This document shows positions 15,864 through 26,094 of a stretch of 34,442 bases of DNA, one piece after another. The DNA is from Dietzia sp. SLG310A2-38A2 (GTDB lineage: Bacteria > Actinomycetota > Actinomycetes > Mycobacteriales > Mycobacteriaceae), in the NCBI RefSeq assembly GCF_014145095.1, contig NZ_JAALDX010000056.1, positions 7,811 to 42,252 on the forward strand. The letters run 5' to 3'. The translations under genes and the position numbers were made by a program. A model generated the notes under the pieces. The model did no database searches. It had not been told where the DNA came from and saw nothing but the letters and a program-made list of their open reading frames with translations. Each line of letters opens with the position of its first letter. Within the stretch, counting starts at the first letter, position 1.

Positions 15864-17588
15864 ATGACCGAAGAACGCTGGCTGGTCGACACCGATCCGA
15901 GTGCACGCCTGCCCATCTACACGAGACTCAACGCCAGTGATGTGCTGTCCGATCCGATCACCCCGCTCGGCGCGGACCTGGGGTGGATCCAGAACATCCT
16001 CCCCGGATGGAACTACGGCTACGCCTTCCACGGCAGCTACTCGCTCACCGAACAACCGGATGTCGCGGCCTCGTCAGGCATCTTCTACGGACACCTGTAC
16101 ATCAATCTGTCGATGTCGCGGTTGGTCGGAATCCGCGGTGGACTCTCGGTTGAGCTGGTCGATCAGCTCTTCTACGGGGGCGACCCGGACATCCCGGAGT
16201 ACGTCGGCCATCCCGGTGACGAGAACGCCGACGCCAGCGCGCGGCTGGCCGAGCGGAACGCCTGGATCATGTCCACCGAGTCGTTCCCTGAACTCGAGGA
16301 GGATCGGGTCCTCGCCGATCGTCTGCGGACCGAGCGACCCGATGTCTCGACGATGACCCCGGCGGCGCTGGTGGCACGGGCCCGATCGGTCATGCCACTC
16401 GAGCGCGCCGCGTGGCGCGGAGAGGTTGTGGCCACCAACGGTGCGGCGGTCGGACCGTCGGTTCTCGGTCAGCTCCTCGGACCCGATAACCAGGACCTCG
16501 TCGTCCGACTGGTCGGGTCCGCCGGTGATGTCGACTCCGCCCTGCCGTCCTACGCTCTCTGGGCGCTCGGTCGGATGGTGCGAGCCAATGGGCAGCTGAC
16601 GGCAGCGTTCGACGAAGGGCTGGCGGACATCACGTCGCGGGTTCGGGGAATCGACCCCGACTTCGATGCCGCGTTCGCCCGATTCATCGCCGACTTCGGC
16701 TATCGCGGTCCCAACGAATGGGATCTGGGATCGGTCTCGTGGGAGACAAACCCGGAACTGGTGATCTCGCTGGTGGACCGACTCCGGCTCCAGGAGGACA
16801 CCGCCTCGCCGACCGCGCGCTTGGCCGAGCATTCGCAGGAGACCGGCGAGGCGCTCGCGCAGGCAAGAGCGATCGTCGGGGACGACTCCGAGGCACAGGC
16901 CACCCTGGCAGCAGCGCTCGCCTCCGCTCGTCGTTTCGCTGCCTGGCGAGAGCGGGCCAAGTCGAACTGCATCAAGGTGCTTCACGAGGCCCGAGTCCCG
17001 TTGATGGAGCTCGGTAGGCGTCTGCACGAGAGCGGAGATCTGGACGCGCCCGAGTTGGTGTTCATGGCCGTGGACGACGAACTGGACCTGCTCGCGAGCG
17101 AGCCCCGGGCTCTCAAGGGTGTTCTCGCCGATCGCCACCGCGCATGGAAGGACCTGTTCGGCCTCGAACTGCCGACTTTCCTGGACACCCGCCAGCCGAT
17201 TCCGCCGCTGGAGAGCCTGCGACGCAAAGGCGACAGCGCGGTCGTCCTCGCCGAGACCGGGGAGGTGCTCCACGGCTCCGGCGCCTCACCGGGAGTGGCG
17301 CGAGGCCGCACCCGCACCATCACGTCGATGGACGACCTCCGGAGTTTCGAGGTCGGGGAGATCCTCGTCGCGCCGCAGACCGACCCCTCCTGGACACCGT
17401 TGTTCATGGTGTCCGCGGCGGCCATCACCGATGTCGGAGCGATGGGTTCGCACGCCATGATCGTGAGTCGTGAGCTCGGGATCCCGTGCACGGCGGGTGT
17501 GCCCGGTGCCACCCGCCGCATTCCCGAGGGCACGCTGGTCGAGGTCGATGGAGCCAAGGGCACGGTCACGATTCTGGAGCTGCCGTGA
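15864..17588 (+). CDS. PEP-utilising enzyme family protein with C-terminal phosphohistidine swivel domain, no ATP-grasp domain (574 aa)
   Basis: The C-terminal 90 residues are a PEP-utilising-enzyme mobile domain: GSGASPGVARGRTR, then ILVAPQTDPSWTPLF, then GSHAMIVSRELGIPC with the phosphorylatable His530. The N-terminal 450 residues have no ATP-grasp (PPDK N-terminal) signature and no TIM-barrel PEP domain. They have an aromatic-rich start (GWIQNILPGWNYGYAFHGSY) and long helices, resembling the middle domain of rifampin phosphotransferases or the alpha subunit of phenylphosphate synthase. It would thus need an ATP-grasp partner to phosphorylate His530, and could then transfer phosphate to a hydroxylated substrate. 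That reaction is inferred. The start at 15864 has a weak AGAAAG box. The stop overlaps the next gene by 4 nt. Confidence 0.8.
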   Translation: MTEERWLVDTDPSARLPIYTRLNASDVLSDPITPLGADLGWIQNILPGWNYGYAFHGSYSLTEQPDVAASSGIFYGHLYINLSMSRLVGIRGGLSVELVDQLFYGGDPDIPEYVGHPGDENADASARLAERNAWIMSTESFPELEEDRVLADRLRTERPDVSTMTPAALVARARSVMPLERAAWRGEVVATNGAAVGPSVLGQLLGPDNQDLVVRLVGSAGDVDSALPSYALWALGRMVRANGQLTAAFDEGLADITSRVRGIDPDFDAAFARFIADFGYRGPNEWDLGSVSWETNPELVISLVDRLRLQEDTASPTARLAEHSQETGEALAQARAIVGDDSEAQATLAAALASARRFAAWRERAKSNCIKVLHEARVPLMELGRRLHESGDLDAPELVFMAVDDELDLLASEPRALKGVLADRHRAWKDLFGLELPTFLDTRQPIPPLESLRRKGDSAVVLAETGEVLHGSGASPGVARGRTRTITSMDDLRSFEVGEILVAPQTDPSWTPLFMVSAAAITDVGAMGSHAMIVSRELGIPCTAGVPGATRRIPEGTLVEVDGAKGTVTILELP

Positions 17589-18631: not shown

Positions 18632-19411
18632 CTACCGGACCACCTGCCCCAGTGCCGCATACAGCGCAACCCAGTGATGCGCGGTGAGATCCTTGGGCAG
18701 GGCATTCGGTGCCACGCCCGCCCGGGCGATGACTCCCCGGACAGCTGATCTGCGCCGCGGGTGCACGACCGAGGCCAGGATCGCAGCGATGCCTCGGCCA
18801 CGGCCGGTGAAGACGTCGTGAACGAAACGTCGGTATGCACTCCTCTCGTTTTCAGCGAGAAGAGGACGAGGCCTCCGGGACAGGACGAGCAACGCTCCGT
18901 CGACGGTCGGCTCCGGCCGGAAGGCCCGGCGGGTCACCCGGCGATGCAGCGTGAACTCGATCCACGGCCACCACTGCGCGGTCATCATGGTTGCGCCCCC
19001 GACGCCTGCTCGGCGTCGCGCGACCTCCCACTGGACCACCAGGACGGCCGTCGTCGTGGACGAGGAGTGGAGTAGTTTGCGCAGAATCGAGGTGGTGAGG
19101 TGGAACGGGAGGTTGCCCACGACCACATGGGGAGTCGTCGGCAACGGCCACCGCACGAAGTCCGCGTGCACCAGATTTACGTCTGTAGCGAGTGAACCCT
19201 GTAGGTGCTCGACCGTTCGGGCGTCGATCTCCACCGCGGTGAGTGGGCGACCCAGTGTCTGCAACGGGGTGGTCAGTGCACCCCGGCCGGGCCCGATCTC
19301 GATGATCGGCCCGGAGGTGTCGTCGACGATGTCGATGATCTCGTCGACGACGGTGGTGTCGGTGAGGAAGTTCTGGCCGTGCTCGTGTCGGCCGCCCCGG
19401 TAGGTGGGCAT
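18632..19411 (-). CDS. erm: 23S rRNA (adenine) N6-methyltransferase, Erm family
   Basis: SAM-dependent methylase expected to modify A2058 of 23S rRNA, giving macrolide-lincosamide-streptogramin B resistance. Conserved motifs are GQNFLTD (12-18), EIGPGRGALTTPL (motif I, 38-50), the acidic Glu61 in VEIDA, HADF with Asp84, and the catalytic NLPF at 100-103 (Phe instead of the more common Tyr). Length 259 aa is normal, with a basic C-terminal region. The RsmA/KsgA family is the alternative, but the short N terminus and the leader peptide upstream favour Erm. The start at 19411 has a GGAG box that can be paired away (see the leader region). Expression is therefore probably inducible. Confidence 0.87.
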   Translation of the reverse strand: MPTYRGGRHEHGQNFLTDTTVVDEIIDIVDDTSGPIIEIGPGRGALTTPLQTLGRPLTAVEIDARTVEHLQGSLATDVNLVHADFVRWPLPTTPHVVVGNLPFHLTTSILRKLLHSSSTTTAVLVVQWEVARRRAGVGGATMMTAQWWPWIEFTLHRRVTRRAFRPEPTVDGALLVLSRRPRPLLAENERSAYRRFVHDVFTGRGRGIAAILASVVHPRRRSAVRGVIARAGVAPNALPKDLTAHHWVALYAALGQVVR

Positions 19412-19416
19412 GTGAA

Positions 19417-19514
19417 GACGCTCCGAATGAAGAGAGTGCGCCCGGGCATGCAGAAGCGCCGCCCGGCTGGACCGCGGAGCGGCGGAAGCGTCCTACAGGA
19501 GGGAATCCGCCGCT
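19417..19514 (-). promoter_or_regulatory. Candidate erm translational/transcriptional attenuator (competing helices)
   Basis: Immediately after the leader peptide, AGCGGCGGA (covering 19506-19514, overlapping the leader stop) can pair perfectly over 9 bp with TCCGCCGCT (19478-19486). The overlapping stretch 19483-19492 can instead pair with 19417-19425, which contains the GGAG ribosome-binding site of erm: 6 perfect pairs, then 3 more after a one-base bulge. The two pairings exclude each other, as in known erm attenuators. Structures were found by eye, without energy calculation. Confidence 0.6.
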
Positions 19515-19554
19515 AGAAGCGACGGTCCCGAATCAGGGTCTGGAAGCAAGCCAT
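19513..19554 (-). CDS. Erm leader peptide (13 aa)
   Basis: A short frame 101 nt upstream of erm encodes MACFQTLIRDRRF and a TAG stop. The Arg-Asp-Arg run fits the (+)x(+) class of macrolide-dependent ribosome-arrest motifs known from other erm leaders such as ErmDL. A -10-like TACACT lies just upstream on the same strand (19562-19567), so its transcript could start at or next to the ATG (leaderless). It is followed directly by the inverted repeats described for the attenuator. Confidence 0.62.
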   Translation of the reverse strand: MACFQTLIRDRRF

Positions 19555-19595
19555 GACGGGGAGTGTATCGGACTCTCCGGGCGTAGTTCCCGCGA

Positions 19596-20153
19596 TCACT
19601 CCCGGTGGAGCGGTCCCAGGACGGGCGCCATCCACCCGGAGATGAACGCGCGCAGCTCGTCGTCGGGACGGGAGGCAGGGTCGTCCAGGCAGAGCACCGA
19701 CCAGCCGACGTGCACGGCGATGTCAGCCAGGTTATCCACCCTGCCCTCGAGCTCAGGGAAGCGCTCGACGGCGGGAGAGAGCAGTGCCACCGCGTAGTCA
19801 CGCGCGCGGCGGGCCGCTCCCGGGTCGAAGATCGGGTTGGCCGTTCCGGACAGCGTGAGCCCCCGGAGCAACGGATCGCCGAGGACGTGGTGACGCGCCT
19901 GGATCATCATCTCGACGAACATTTCCAATGGCGACCCGGTCGACTCCATCAATTCGGCGAATGCCCCGGTCAGCGAGGTCAGCCGGTCGGAGACGGCCTG
20001 GGACACCAACTCTTCCCGGGTCCCGAAGATCGAATGGACGGTCTGCCGACTCACTCCCGCACGCCTGGCCACTCCGGCGACGCTCACGGCAGTGAAGCCC
20101 GACTCCCCGATCACGGCTCGGGTGGCCTCGAGGATGATCTCCCGGGATCGCAC
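19596..20153 (-). CDS. TetR-family regulator (185 aa)
   Basis: The N-terminal HTH is clear: REIILEATRAVIGESGFTAV followed by GVSRQTVHSIFGTREELV. The C-terminal helical domain has a typical length. The start is GTG at 20153, the only usable in-frame start, with no strong Shine-Dalgarno, 66 bp after the stop of the GMC oxidoreductase on the same strand. Co-transcription with that gene is likely, and it may regulate it. It also lies immediately upstream of the erm leader, so read-through into erm is possible. Confidence 0.85.
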   Translation of the reverse strand: MRSREIILEATRAVIGESGFTAVSVAGVARRAGVSRQTVHSIFGTREELVSQAVSDRLTSLTGAFAELMESTGSPLEMFVEMMIQARHHVLGDPLLRGLTLSGTANPIFDPGAARRARDYAVALLSPAVERFPELEGRVDNLADIAVHVGWSVLCLDDPASRPDDELRAFISGWMAPVLGPLHRE

Positions 20154-24285: not shown

Positions 24286-24331
24286 CCGGCGACGAACGAG
24301 GAGTGCTGTCTCCGAACGGTTATGCCGATTG

Positions 24332-24460
24332 TCACCCGCCGCCCGCCGCACGCGCGTCCGGCGCGATGGTGGCGGCCATCTGGTGCAGGCTTTCGCGAAG
24401 CGCCGGTGCTCCCGCGGCGACCATCATCTGCCCGAGCACGTACGTTGAACCCACCAGCCA
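24332..24460 (-). pseudogene. C-terminal fragment of a lost gene
   Basis: On the minus strand about 42 residues (WLVGSTYVLGQMMVAAGAP, continuing ALRESLHQMAATIAP) end at a stop at 24332. They read like a natural helical protein C terminus. Upstream the frame turns into low-quality translation antisense to the next gene, and no start codon fits. This looks like the tail of a gene cut off by a recombination or insertion event. The parent family was not recognised (a TetR-type C-terminal domain is one possibility). The 24236-24477 gap holds nothing else apart from the terminator. Confidence 0.4.
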
Positions 24461-24477
24461 GTGCGTTGAGGGGGAAC

Positions 24478-26094
24478 GTGGAGGAACACCTGGAGTCCAG
24501 CTACGGGTCGGGCGGTTATAGGCGGGTGATCCGATTCTTTCCCGATTATGGCCGCGACCACCCTCTGTGGGAGAGCGGGACCGACAAATACGCGATGGAC
24601 CCAGAGGACTACGGGTTATCGGAATCGCTTGCACGACGATTGGCCGAGTGGATGAAACACTGGGAGTCCAATGTCGTCCCGGAGACCGGGTGGAGATCCG
24701 CTGAGGCGGCCGAAGAATCCGAACGAATCGCGGACGCACTGGTCGCTGATCTGCGCGTCGAAGTGTCCGCCTTCGCTGAGGTACGCGACGAGCGGAAACG
24801 AGCGGTTCACTCCCCTGACTCCACACCTCACCGCAGCACCCGGGACCACACGATCTCGATGTTCGTCTCCAGCGCGGTATTCATGGACGGTTCACTACCG
24901 CAGCTCTACGTGGGTGGCGTCATCAGCGTCTCTCTCCTCTTTGATACAGACGTCGACCAGGCAACCGCCGGCGTTGATACCTTCCACGTCACAGTGCGCC
25001 CCGATTACGGGAAGACGCCGCTTCTCGACCAGGAGGGATCGTTGCAGTGGCCGTTCGTGGTCGTCGGTGACGGTTGGACCGCCCGGTGGCTCCACCACGC
25101 GCCGTTCTCCGGCCGAGTCCGGTTGCCCGGGCGACTGTCCCCTGACTTTGTCCACGCCATCCCCGGACACCCACAAACCACGACCGGCAGGGTTCGGCGC
25201 CTACAACTGGTCGAAGAACAGTACGAGAGCACAGCTAGCGGGCGGCAACGCGTCCCGGGCACAGAGCGGGTCAGCGACCTGGACACCGAGTCCGACCACC
25301 ATTGGCCCGAGTGGCGAATTCTCCCTGTCGACGAACCCTTCCATCCCACCGGGATGATCGTGGACCTCGATCTCGATGACGTCCCGGAAGCGACCGGCAG
25401 CTTCAATGCCGGGGCGATAGGCGTCCGCGGGACCGACGTGTGGGTCATGGACAAATCAAACCCCGTCCTCATCCATATCGACTCCGCTGATACGCCGCCA
25501 CGAGTCACCGAGTATCTCCTGCCGCTGACAATCGAACCTCCCACCACTCTGTGGACGCGCAGGGTCCACGCCGTCCGCGACGGATGCTGGATCGCCGCTC
25601 AGGACGAGATTGTTCGCTGCACCCGAAATGGTCTGGCCGAGCTGGCCTTGCGACGCGTCTCGACCGATGGCGGTGACGACACCGTCGAGCTCGACAGTCG
25701 TCTCTTCGTCCTCACTTATCCAGGATTGTTGACCCAGATGTCCGAGCGATACGGCGTACTGCGTGGGAGCCCCGACCCCTTCTCAGTTCGTGAAGTGATA
25801 GACGATGAGCTGCTTTCGGTCACCGACGAACCCACTATCACCCGAGTACGAGCACGCGCCCACGACGAGCGAGCCGACATCGCTACTACTCCAGAGGGCA
25901 CTCAATGGACGGCCGCCGGACGCGTCACCGTCAAACCTGCCAGCGGGATGAGTCACACGGTGGACCTGCACCCGCGGTCTCGGGGCCGAGTGGACTGGAT
26001 TCGCCCCGACGCACATTCCGGACAAGGTGTCGATGAGATCGCCATCGGATCCTTTGCTCCTCTTTCGGGAAGGTCATCCAACAGGAGCTCTTAG
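24478..26094 (+). CDS. Unknown protein, 538 aa
   Basis: Not recognised. The GTG start at 24478 has GAGGGGG just upstream; the open frame extends 52 residues further but only through low-complexity shadow. The N terminus is VEEHLESSYGSGGYRR, followed by VIRFFPDYGRDHPLW and an acidic, Trp-rich helical stretch (about 1-100), which looks like a small separate domain. The rest is beta-rich with repeated D/W/V patterns (TDVWVMDKSN, RDGCWIAAQDEIVRC, GTQWTAAGRV) at intervals that resemble blades of a beta-propeller. There is no signal peptide or membrane segment, so it is probably cytoplasmic. Base composition is visibly less GC-rich than in the catabolic cluster, and it starts directly after a gene fragment, so it was probably acquired. 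Confidence 0.75.
   Translation: MEEHLESSYGSGGYRRVIRFFPDYGRDHPLWESGTDKYAMDPEDYGLSESLARRLAEWMKHWESNVVPETGWRSAEAAEESERIADALVADLRVEVSAFAEVRDERKRAVHSPDSTPHRSTRDHTISMFVSSAVFMDGSLPQLYVGGVISVSLLFDTDVDQATAGVDTFHVTVRPDYGKTPLLDQEGSLQWPFVVVGDGWTARWLHHAPFSGRVRLPGRLSPDFVHAIPGHPQTTTGRVRRLQLVEEQYESTASGRQRVPGTERVSDLDTESDHHWPEWRILPVDEPFHPTGMIVDLDLDDVPEATGSFNAGAIGVRGTDVWVMDKSNPVLIHIDSADTPPRVTEYLLPLTIEPPTTLWTRRVHAVRDGCWIAAQDEIVRCTRNGLAELALRRVSTDGGDDTVELDSRLFVLTYPGLLTQMSERYGVLRGSPDPFSVREVIDDELLSVTDEPTITRVRARAHDERADIATTPEGTQWTAAGRVTVKPASGMSHTVDLHPRSRGRVDWIRPDAHSGQGVDEIAIGSFAPLSGRSSNRSS

Follow-up and report, generated by a model that had tools for sequence, protein, structure and literature searches.

The erm gene of Dietzia sp. 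SLG310A2-38A2 raises the question of how its expression is controlled, given the very short reading frame and the potential RNA helices that precede it, and whether such an arrangement extends beyond this genus. The window, by which is meant the whole stretch of 34,442 nucleotides that was analysed, comes from a draft genome that is 85% complete. Its erm reading frame is intact (259 residues), and the product scores above the cut-off of the broad NCBIfam Erm profile (NF000499.2, 284.8 bits against a cut-off of 212). For the subfamilies Erm(46), Erm(38) and Erm(55) it scores 331.6, 316.7 and 315.6 bits, which is below the subfamily cut-offs of 503, 800 and 525, respectively. Erm matches at E 1e-40 or better were found in 10 of 23 Dietzia genomes, the genome of the window included, and the Erm of Dietzia cercidiphylli is 91% identical to that of the window. 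Elsewhere in the window, the plus strand encodes a 574-residue protein (15864-17588) with a PEP-utilising mobile domain at its C terminus, which resembles PEP synthases, rifampicin phosphotransferases and prodigiosin ligases, all below cut-offs, and a 590-residue open reading frame (24322-26094), possibly spurious or an orphan, for which Pfam and NCBIfam matches were looked for at 0.001 and none found. The features of the erm locus, in the direction of transcription, are as follows.

19562..19567, minus strand: -10-like hexamer TACACT, 7 nt before the leader ATG (sequence; TANNNT spacing in relatives)
19513..19554, minus strand: leader reading frame MACFQTLIRDRRF with its stop, 13 residues, probably translated leaderless (sequence, translation)
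19522..19530, minus strand: codons of Arg9-Asp10-Arg11, the putative macrolide arrest motif (+X+), with Asp in the P site and Arg11 in the A site
19518..19524, minus strand: region a (segment 1), CGTCGCT, predicted to pair with b in the no-drug state (folding, swap test)
19506..19514, minus strand: region b (segment 2), AGCGGCGGA, which can pair with a or c (sequence, swap test, alignment columns)
19483..19493, minus strand: region c (segment 3), anti-Shine-Dalgarno part, GGACGCTTCCG, overlapping the b-pairing part (folding, swap test)
19478..19486, minus strand: region c, b-pairing part, TCCGCCGCT (sequence, swap test, alignment columns)
19461..19466, minus strand: region d, CCGGGC, 5' arm of a constant hairpin between segments 3 and 4 (swap test, alignment columns)
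19442..19447, minus strand: region e, GCCCGG, 3' arm of the constant hairpin (swap test, alignment columns)
19417..19425, minus strand: region f (segment 4), CGGAGCGTC, with the erm Shine-Dalgarno sequence GGAG at 19421-19424 (sequence, swap test)
18632..19411, minus strand: erm, encoding a 23S rRNA adenine-N6 methyltransferase of 259 residues, ATG start (NCBIfam profile)

A sequence-only reading of this DNA had described a 13-residue frame upstream of erm, a 9-bp helix beginning at the leader stop, an overlapping stretch able to cover the erm ribosome-binding site, and a -10-like hexamer that would place the RNA start near the leader ATG. All of these elements were found as described: the frame is present, regions b and c form a perfect 9-bp helix from the A of the TAG stop, the overlapping part of c can pair with region f and does so in the minimum-energy fold, and TACACT stands 7 nt before the ATG, a spacing that points to an RNA start close to it. 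No Rfam family matched the window at its gathering score.

Conservation of the leader was examined in 143 related erm loci, reduced at 90% protein identity to 88 representatives, by searching upstream for an ATG or GTG reading frame of 6 to 40 codons ending in R-x-R plus 0 to 4 residues. Such a leader precedes 80 of the 88 genes. The tail after the motif is two residues long in 64 of the 80, one in 11 and three in 5, and is never absent or four residues long. In a chance test on a common 260-nt upstream stretch of 87 representatives (L036, whose upstream stretch is too short because a contig ends there, was left out), leaders were found at 79 loci. Dinucleotide shuffling (20 rounds) gave 9.25 on average and 16 at most, and the reverse strand gave 21. 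Leaders that also have TANNNT 6 or 7 nt before the start codon number 68 of 87, compared with a shuffle mean of 0.1. Thus Arg-X-Arg near the stop, the -10 spacing and, as described below, the alternative helices are kept far beyond Dietzia, which answers the question of conservation in relatives that the sequence-only reading had left to be checked.

The Dietzia leader ends in IRDRRF and so conforms to the R/K-X-R/K pattern of +X+ arrest peptides. Macrolides and ketolides are known to arrest ribosomes at Arg-X-Arg motifs when X occupies the P site, as at RLR in ErmDL (PMC8298421) and at RYR in TlrB (PMC6851288), and the placement of the P and A sites at Arg9-Asp10-Arg11 follows the stalling rule given in these two sources. 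According to the same sources, RLR of ErmDL is needed with telithromycin and dispensable with erythromycin (PMC8298421), and the TlrB leader is described as responding to tylosin and not to erythromycin (PMC6851288); the motif therefore cannot tell which macrolide would induce the Dietzia gene.

Because leaders were searched for by the two arginines of the motif, the constancy of these residues carries no information; the information lies in how they are encoded and what surrounds them. The arginine codons might have been kept only because CGN builds helix a:b, the peptide being inert. CGC is indeed the second arginine codon in 68 of the 80 leaders and the codon after it in 46, a:b co-evolves (see below), and the minimum-energy hairpin of the window extends into the first arginine codon. 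Against this, the first arginine is written as CGG (30), CGC (20), AGG (19), CGT (10) or CGA (1) while X is any of 12 amino acids (Leu 32, Ile 14, Asp 10, Pro 8, Gly 7, Thr 3 and six singles), and in every leader the motif is separated from the stop by one to three residues, so that we hold a purely RNA-level role to be very unlikely. A quick maximum-likelihood tree built from the 88 Erm proteins implies no fewer than 28 replacements of X. A further possibility, to which we give hardly any weight, is that the ribosome stalls on arginine codons for want of charged tRNA-Arg, as in the leaders of amino-acid biosynthesis operons. Arginine does occupy three of the last five codons of the Dietzia leader and follows the motif in 46 of the 80 leaders, but the residue after the motif is another in the other 34, the target is a 23S rRNA methyltransferase gene rather than one of arginine metabolism, and the module also precedes ABC-F and exporter genes.

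Presence or absence of the leader accounts for seven changes, scattered over the 88-protein tree. Eight representatives lack a leader by the R-x-R criterion (L036, L006, L068, L102, L143, L033, L048 and L069). In L036 the leader is cut by the contig end; in L006/L032, from a Dietzia metagenome assembly, the leader frame is not intact and the RNA element is kept (73.8 bits); and L102, as read by eye, has a frame ending in RLR that lacks an ATG or GTG start. The leader of L068, also read by eye, is MLISGSVFMRPLTSR, which has RPL where L105 and L107 have RLR and contains no Arg-X-Arg. A covariance model of b:c plus d:e (R1) matches L036, L006, L068, L102 and L143 at 46.9 bits or more; matches are weak in L033 (27.2 bits) and L048 (19.8 bits), and none was found on the plus strand upstream in L069.

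The spacing between promoter and leader is nearly fixed. Among 73 leaders that start with ATG, 62 have TANNNT at a gap of 6 or 7 nt, whereas any other gap up to 39 nt is represented at most three times. TANNNT is treated as the mycobacterial -10 motif (PMC4128351), and this spacing makes it most likely that the 5' end of the leader mRNA coincides with, or directly adjoins, the start codon. Transcription would accordingly start at or beside the A of the leader ATG, and the leader is probably leaderless, that is, translated from the very 5' end of the RNA. A sigma-70 -35/-10 consensus pair was searched for in 19300-19800 and none was found.

In the 50 nt before TANNNT, the 68 relatives with this hexamer at a gap of 6 to 7 nt have an A+T-rich block at -31 to -28, followed in many rows by GGTTG-like letters. 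This is the arrangement of WhiB7-type promoters. Four A/T in a row at the block occur in 44 of the 68 loci (shuffle mean 4.9, maximum 10, in 200 shuffles), and a stricter WhiB7-type pattern in 23 (shuffle mean 3.3, maximum 9). These counts, which lie above the shuffles, would favour control chiefly through WhiB7 with the leader secondary, as in mycobacterial erm(37) and erm(41). For Dietzia we consider this exceedingly improbable. The window promoter fits neither pattern, and in 23 Dietzia genomes no WhiB7 orthologue was detected, the best match having an E value of 1.7e-8, while in eight of eight other genomes of the same order with such an erm the same query, as a positive control, found WhiB7 at 62-65% identity and E 5.3e-30 or better. 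The AT-hook is absent from the six WhiB loci of the genome of the window (five by pattern, the sixth by eye) and from the six of another Dietzia genome that is a single contig and rated 100% complete. With no WhiB7 orthologue detected, no AT-hook in the WhiB loci of these two genomes and no promoter signature, Dietzia seems to run its erm without WhiB7. Its gene resembles erm(37) and erm(41) in being an actinobacterial erm, those genes being described as induced by ribosome-targeting drugs (PMC4128351, PMC10727445), and differs from these WhiB7-controlled genes in that no WhiB7 was detected in Dietzia and the promoter is without the signature.

Mutually exclusive helices, one of which covers the erm binding site, are supported by folding, the swap test and the alignment columns, the last being weak for the off state. 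Sixty loci with the leader stop at the usual distance were used for alignment, for the swap test and for ensemble folding. RNAalifold on a MAFFT alignment of these loci returned four base pairs only, in our opinion because three helices compete and lengths vary, and the swap test, which compares the duplex energy of each region with its own partner and with permuted partners (2000 permutations), was therefore used in its place. Over the 35 divergent loci, z was -7.6 for b:c (0 of 2000 permutations as low), -3.3 for c:f (2), -3.0 for a:b (3) and -2.7 for d:e (10); these pairings had been picked after inspection of the sequences, and nine other region pairs served as controls, with z from -1.8 to 0.5, the strongest being a:f (-2.0 over all 60 loci, -1.8 over the 35). 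Thus a:b, b:c, c:f and d:e co-evolve, and the nine other pairs do not clearly do so.

Alignment columns were compared in 59 rows, L073 being left out for a long insertion. For b:c plus d:e, 89.7% of cells are paired as against 35.8-50.6% when the pairing is slid, and seven pairs are changed on both sides, compared with 3.4 after shuffling (0 of 500 shuffles) and with 4 to 8 in slid versions. The off-state columns are weak: 74.9% of cells are paired versus 73.6% (1 of 500), and seven pairs are changed on both sides versus 6.4 (221 of 500).

The co-evolution of c with the binding-site region f also bears on the possibility that the leader chooses between a terminator and an antiterminator, as in whiB7 or, in part, tlrB of Bacillus subtilis. 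Transcriptional attenuation of this kind is described in PMC12421871 and PMC10727445 for the leaders of actinobacterial ABC-F genes and whiB7, and d:e, the constant hairpin, combines a high G+C content with strong conservation. Yet no intrinsic terminator-like site was found in 19300-19800, no run of U follows d:e, and a pure terminator would not need c to co-evolve with f. We therefore judge transcriptional attenuation unlikely.

By far the most probable reading is that the Dietzia erm leader is a macrolide-inducible translational attenuator. With transcription starting at or beside the leader ATG, the leader would be translated from the extreme 5' end of the RNA. When no drug is present, the ribosome would complete the 13 codons and leave, a:b and c:f would form around d:e, and the erm binding site would be shut by c:f. 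If a macrolide or ketolide occupies the exit tunnel, the ribosome would halt with Asp10 in the P site because Arg11 cannot be added. The stalled ribosome would then cover a and break a:b, leaving b free to pair with c; b:c would release f, which holds the binding site, from c, so that erm would be translated and ribosomes protected. The sequence-only reading had also arrived at a drug-inducible attenuator. Its structural basis stands, in the form of the conserved leader and the alternative helices, while drug-dependent stalling at Arg-Asp-Arg and the ensuing induction are what we infer from them.

Folding models are in partial agreement with this scheme. The free window RNA has a:b, c:f and d:e in its minimum-energy fold, so that the binding site is shut, and its pairing probability with c in the free state is 0.80 (0.70-0.82 over four RNA lengths); the site is thus not open in all states, the outcome that would have spoken against an attenuator. 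When the mask on the leader reaches nt 38-41, b:c appears in the minimum-energy fold in place of these pairings; when it reaches nt 44-50, that fold has c paired to the d region. When the ribosome edge is expressed as the distance from the first base of the P-site codon, site-to-c pairing in the window ensemble goes from 0.80 in the free state to 0.06 with the edge at 12 nt, 0.29 at 14 nt and 0.89 at 16 nt, and b:c pairing rises from 0.07 to about 1 with the edge at 12 nt. Site-to-c pairing is broken at edge 12 for all four RNA lengths (0.01-0.21) and at edge 16 for one of the four, and with c gone the unpaired probability of the site rises only from 0.13-0.16 to 0.26-0.30. In view of these dependences on length and edge, the model supports a helix exchange and not a fully open site, and release as modelled needs the ribosome edge near the mRNA entry, not at the toeprint position.

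In 69 of the 80 loci, those with the leader stop at the usual distance, the free binding site is less accessible with the native spacer (0.15) than with shuffled ones (0.20, p 0.0009), and the gain in site opening on stalling does not differ from that with shuffled spacers (p 0.145); of this comparison we count only the burial in the free state as support. Among the 60 loci of the ensemble analysis, site-to-c pairing exceeds 0.3 in the free state in only 18; with the edge at 12 nt, 11 loci lose more than 0.2 of this pairing and 5 gain more than 0.2. In the 60 loci masking raises the unpaired fraction of the site, a figure uncontrolled by shuffles, from 0.17 to 0.26 with the edge at 12 nt (p 1e-5) and to 0.23 with the edge at 16 nt (p 0.01). 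The total folding energy of the window leader is ordinary (z -1.31; 21 of 200 shuffles as stable). Co-evolution is better evidence for the switch than folding energetics.

The working principle is a known one. In the ermC/ermCL attenuator, pairing of segments 1:2 and 3:4 is swapped for 2:3 when the ribosome stalls. That scheme, outlined in PMC10219788, is matched by the exchange of 1:2 and 3:4 for 2:3 modelled in Dietzia, which differs in its unrelated leader sequence and in the extra constant hairpin d:e between segments 3 and 4. The leader is unlike those of ErmC and ErmB, as had been noted from the sequence, and is of the Arg-X-Arg type that ErmDL and TlrB represent. With ErmDL-ermD it shares the arrest motif (Arg-Leu-Arg in ErmDL), a short leader, a putatively inducible erm and the predicted stall before the second arginine (PMC8298421); unlike ErmDL, the Dietzia leader is probably leaderless, has Asp as X and places two residues between the motif and the stop. 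The tlrB (yxjB) leader of B. subtilis, MIIQFIRYR, is likewise very short, has a C-terminal Arg-X-Arg, and precedes a 23S rRNA methyltransferase gene, whose binding site is described as exposed by the stalled ribosome (PMC6851288). According to the same source, tlrB has a terminator, NusG-dependent pausing and a leader Shine-Dalgarno sequence, whereas no terminator was found in Dietzia and the -10 hexamer lies too close to the leader start for a 5' UTR.

Loci L068, L105 and L107, presumably erm(X) of the Corynebacterium type, share the Dietzia RNA element. R1 matches L068 at 59 bits, and the leaders of L105 and L107 have RLR; L068, which represents a large near-identical set from Corynebacterium and other genera, differs from Dietzia in having no Arg-X-Arg. 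An RLR leader class with actinobacterial members is reportedly defined by Ramu 2009. A leader peptide gene of Corynebacterium erm(X) is mentioned in PMC3350403, and leaders of other ABC-F genes are described in PMC12421871 and PMC10201436. A 2024 survey of erm upstream regions reports that leader reading frames are not universally conserved, and proposes independent origins (PMC11264731). In the present sample, one leader architecture is found on all sides of the actinobacterial Erm tree. Searches of the open-licence literature brought up no account of an Arg-X-Arg attenuator that is leaderless and common to erm, ABC-F and exporter genes of Actinobacteria. What is distinct is the anatomy: a probably leaderless sensor, Arg-X-Arg beside the stop, and a constant spacer hairpin.

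The use of this attenuator is unexpectedly wide. R1 scores the window element at 88.9 bits (the element was part of the model), and the next-best match in the window has an E value of 0.36. In 150 genomes of the order, R1 found 17 places, namely 9 erm genes (that of the window included), 7 ABC-F genes and 1 MFS gene; about 1.5 chance places are expected at E 0.01 per genome. In 296 genomes of the class it found 32 places, with about 3 expected by chance: 12 before erm (again including that of the window), 4 before ABC-F and 12 before MFS genes, 1 before a nucleotidyltransferase-like gene, and 3 without a gene assignment (L237, L238 and G686:C11). One MFS locus (L214) is counted in both scans, and the stricter filters of these scans may have missed other places. 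NCBIfam profiles, below their curated cut-offs, identify L206, L220 and L222 as ribosomal-protection and TlrC/CarA-type ABC-F and L214, L228 and L234 as LmrA-type exporters; the gene classes of loci outside these six were assigned by eye from sequence, and for L223, L226, L229, L230, L231 and L239 an NCBIfam match was sought at 1e-55 and none found.

The non-erm loci share the promoter spacing and vary in the end of the peptide. TANNNT stands 6-7 nt before the leader start in 20 of 24 such loci, a raw count in which the leader of L229 was missed by the stop pattern although it has TACCCT at a gap of 7 nt. The 11 ABC-F loci (L205, L206, L209-L213, L220-L222 and L224) include seven with R-x-R in the leader, and KPW or RPW occurs in four (L210, L212 as read by eye, L213 and L224). 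All seven leaders of LmrA-like MFS genes (L214, L228, L234, L235, L240, L241 and L242) end in AAVTR(T/A)xR and are perhaps lincosamide sensors. In five further MFS genes the leader ends in DRLRRx or VRTRRR or is acidic.

On balance we lean, by a narrow degree, towards an ancient and portable actinobacterial module in which a leaderless sensor peptide is fused to a fixed RNA switch (b, c, d:e and the binding site) and the peptide end is swapped according to drug class: Arg-X-Arg for erm and seven of the 11 ABC-F genes, Lys/Arg-Pro-Trp for four ABC-F genes, and Ala-Val-Thr-Arg-(Thr/Ala)-X-Arg for seven LmrA-like genes. The genes served would thus be erm, TlrC/CarA-like ABC-F, and LmrA-like and other MFS genes, with the attenuator layered on a WhiB7-type promoter in many lineages and acting alone in Dietzia. 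The loci assembled here provide a natural collection of putative Arg-X-Arg arrest peptides, in which 12 different residues occupy X, and a set of probably leaderless regulatory reading frames. They also offer a route to predicting which actinobacterial resistance genes, Mycolicibacterium records included, answer which ribosome-targeting drugs, and through the sensor-swap pattern context-specific rules of stalling with other drug classes could be tested on sequence data. Two MFS-like genes carry the element with acidic leaders, MPESDDAAA in L230 and MPLTEEQAAL in L239, both of them, to our knowledge, unlike any known arrest motif.
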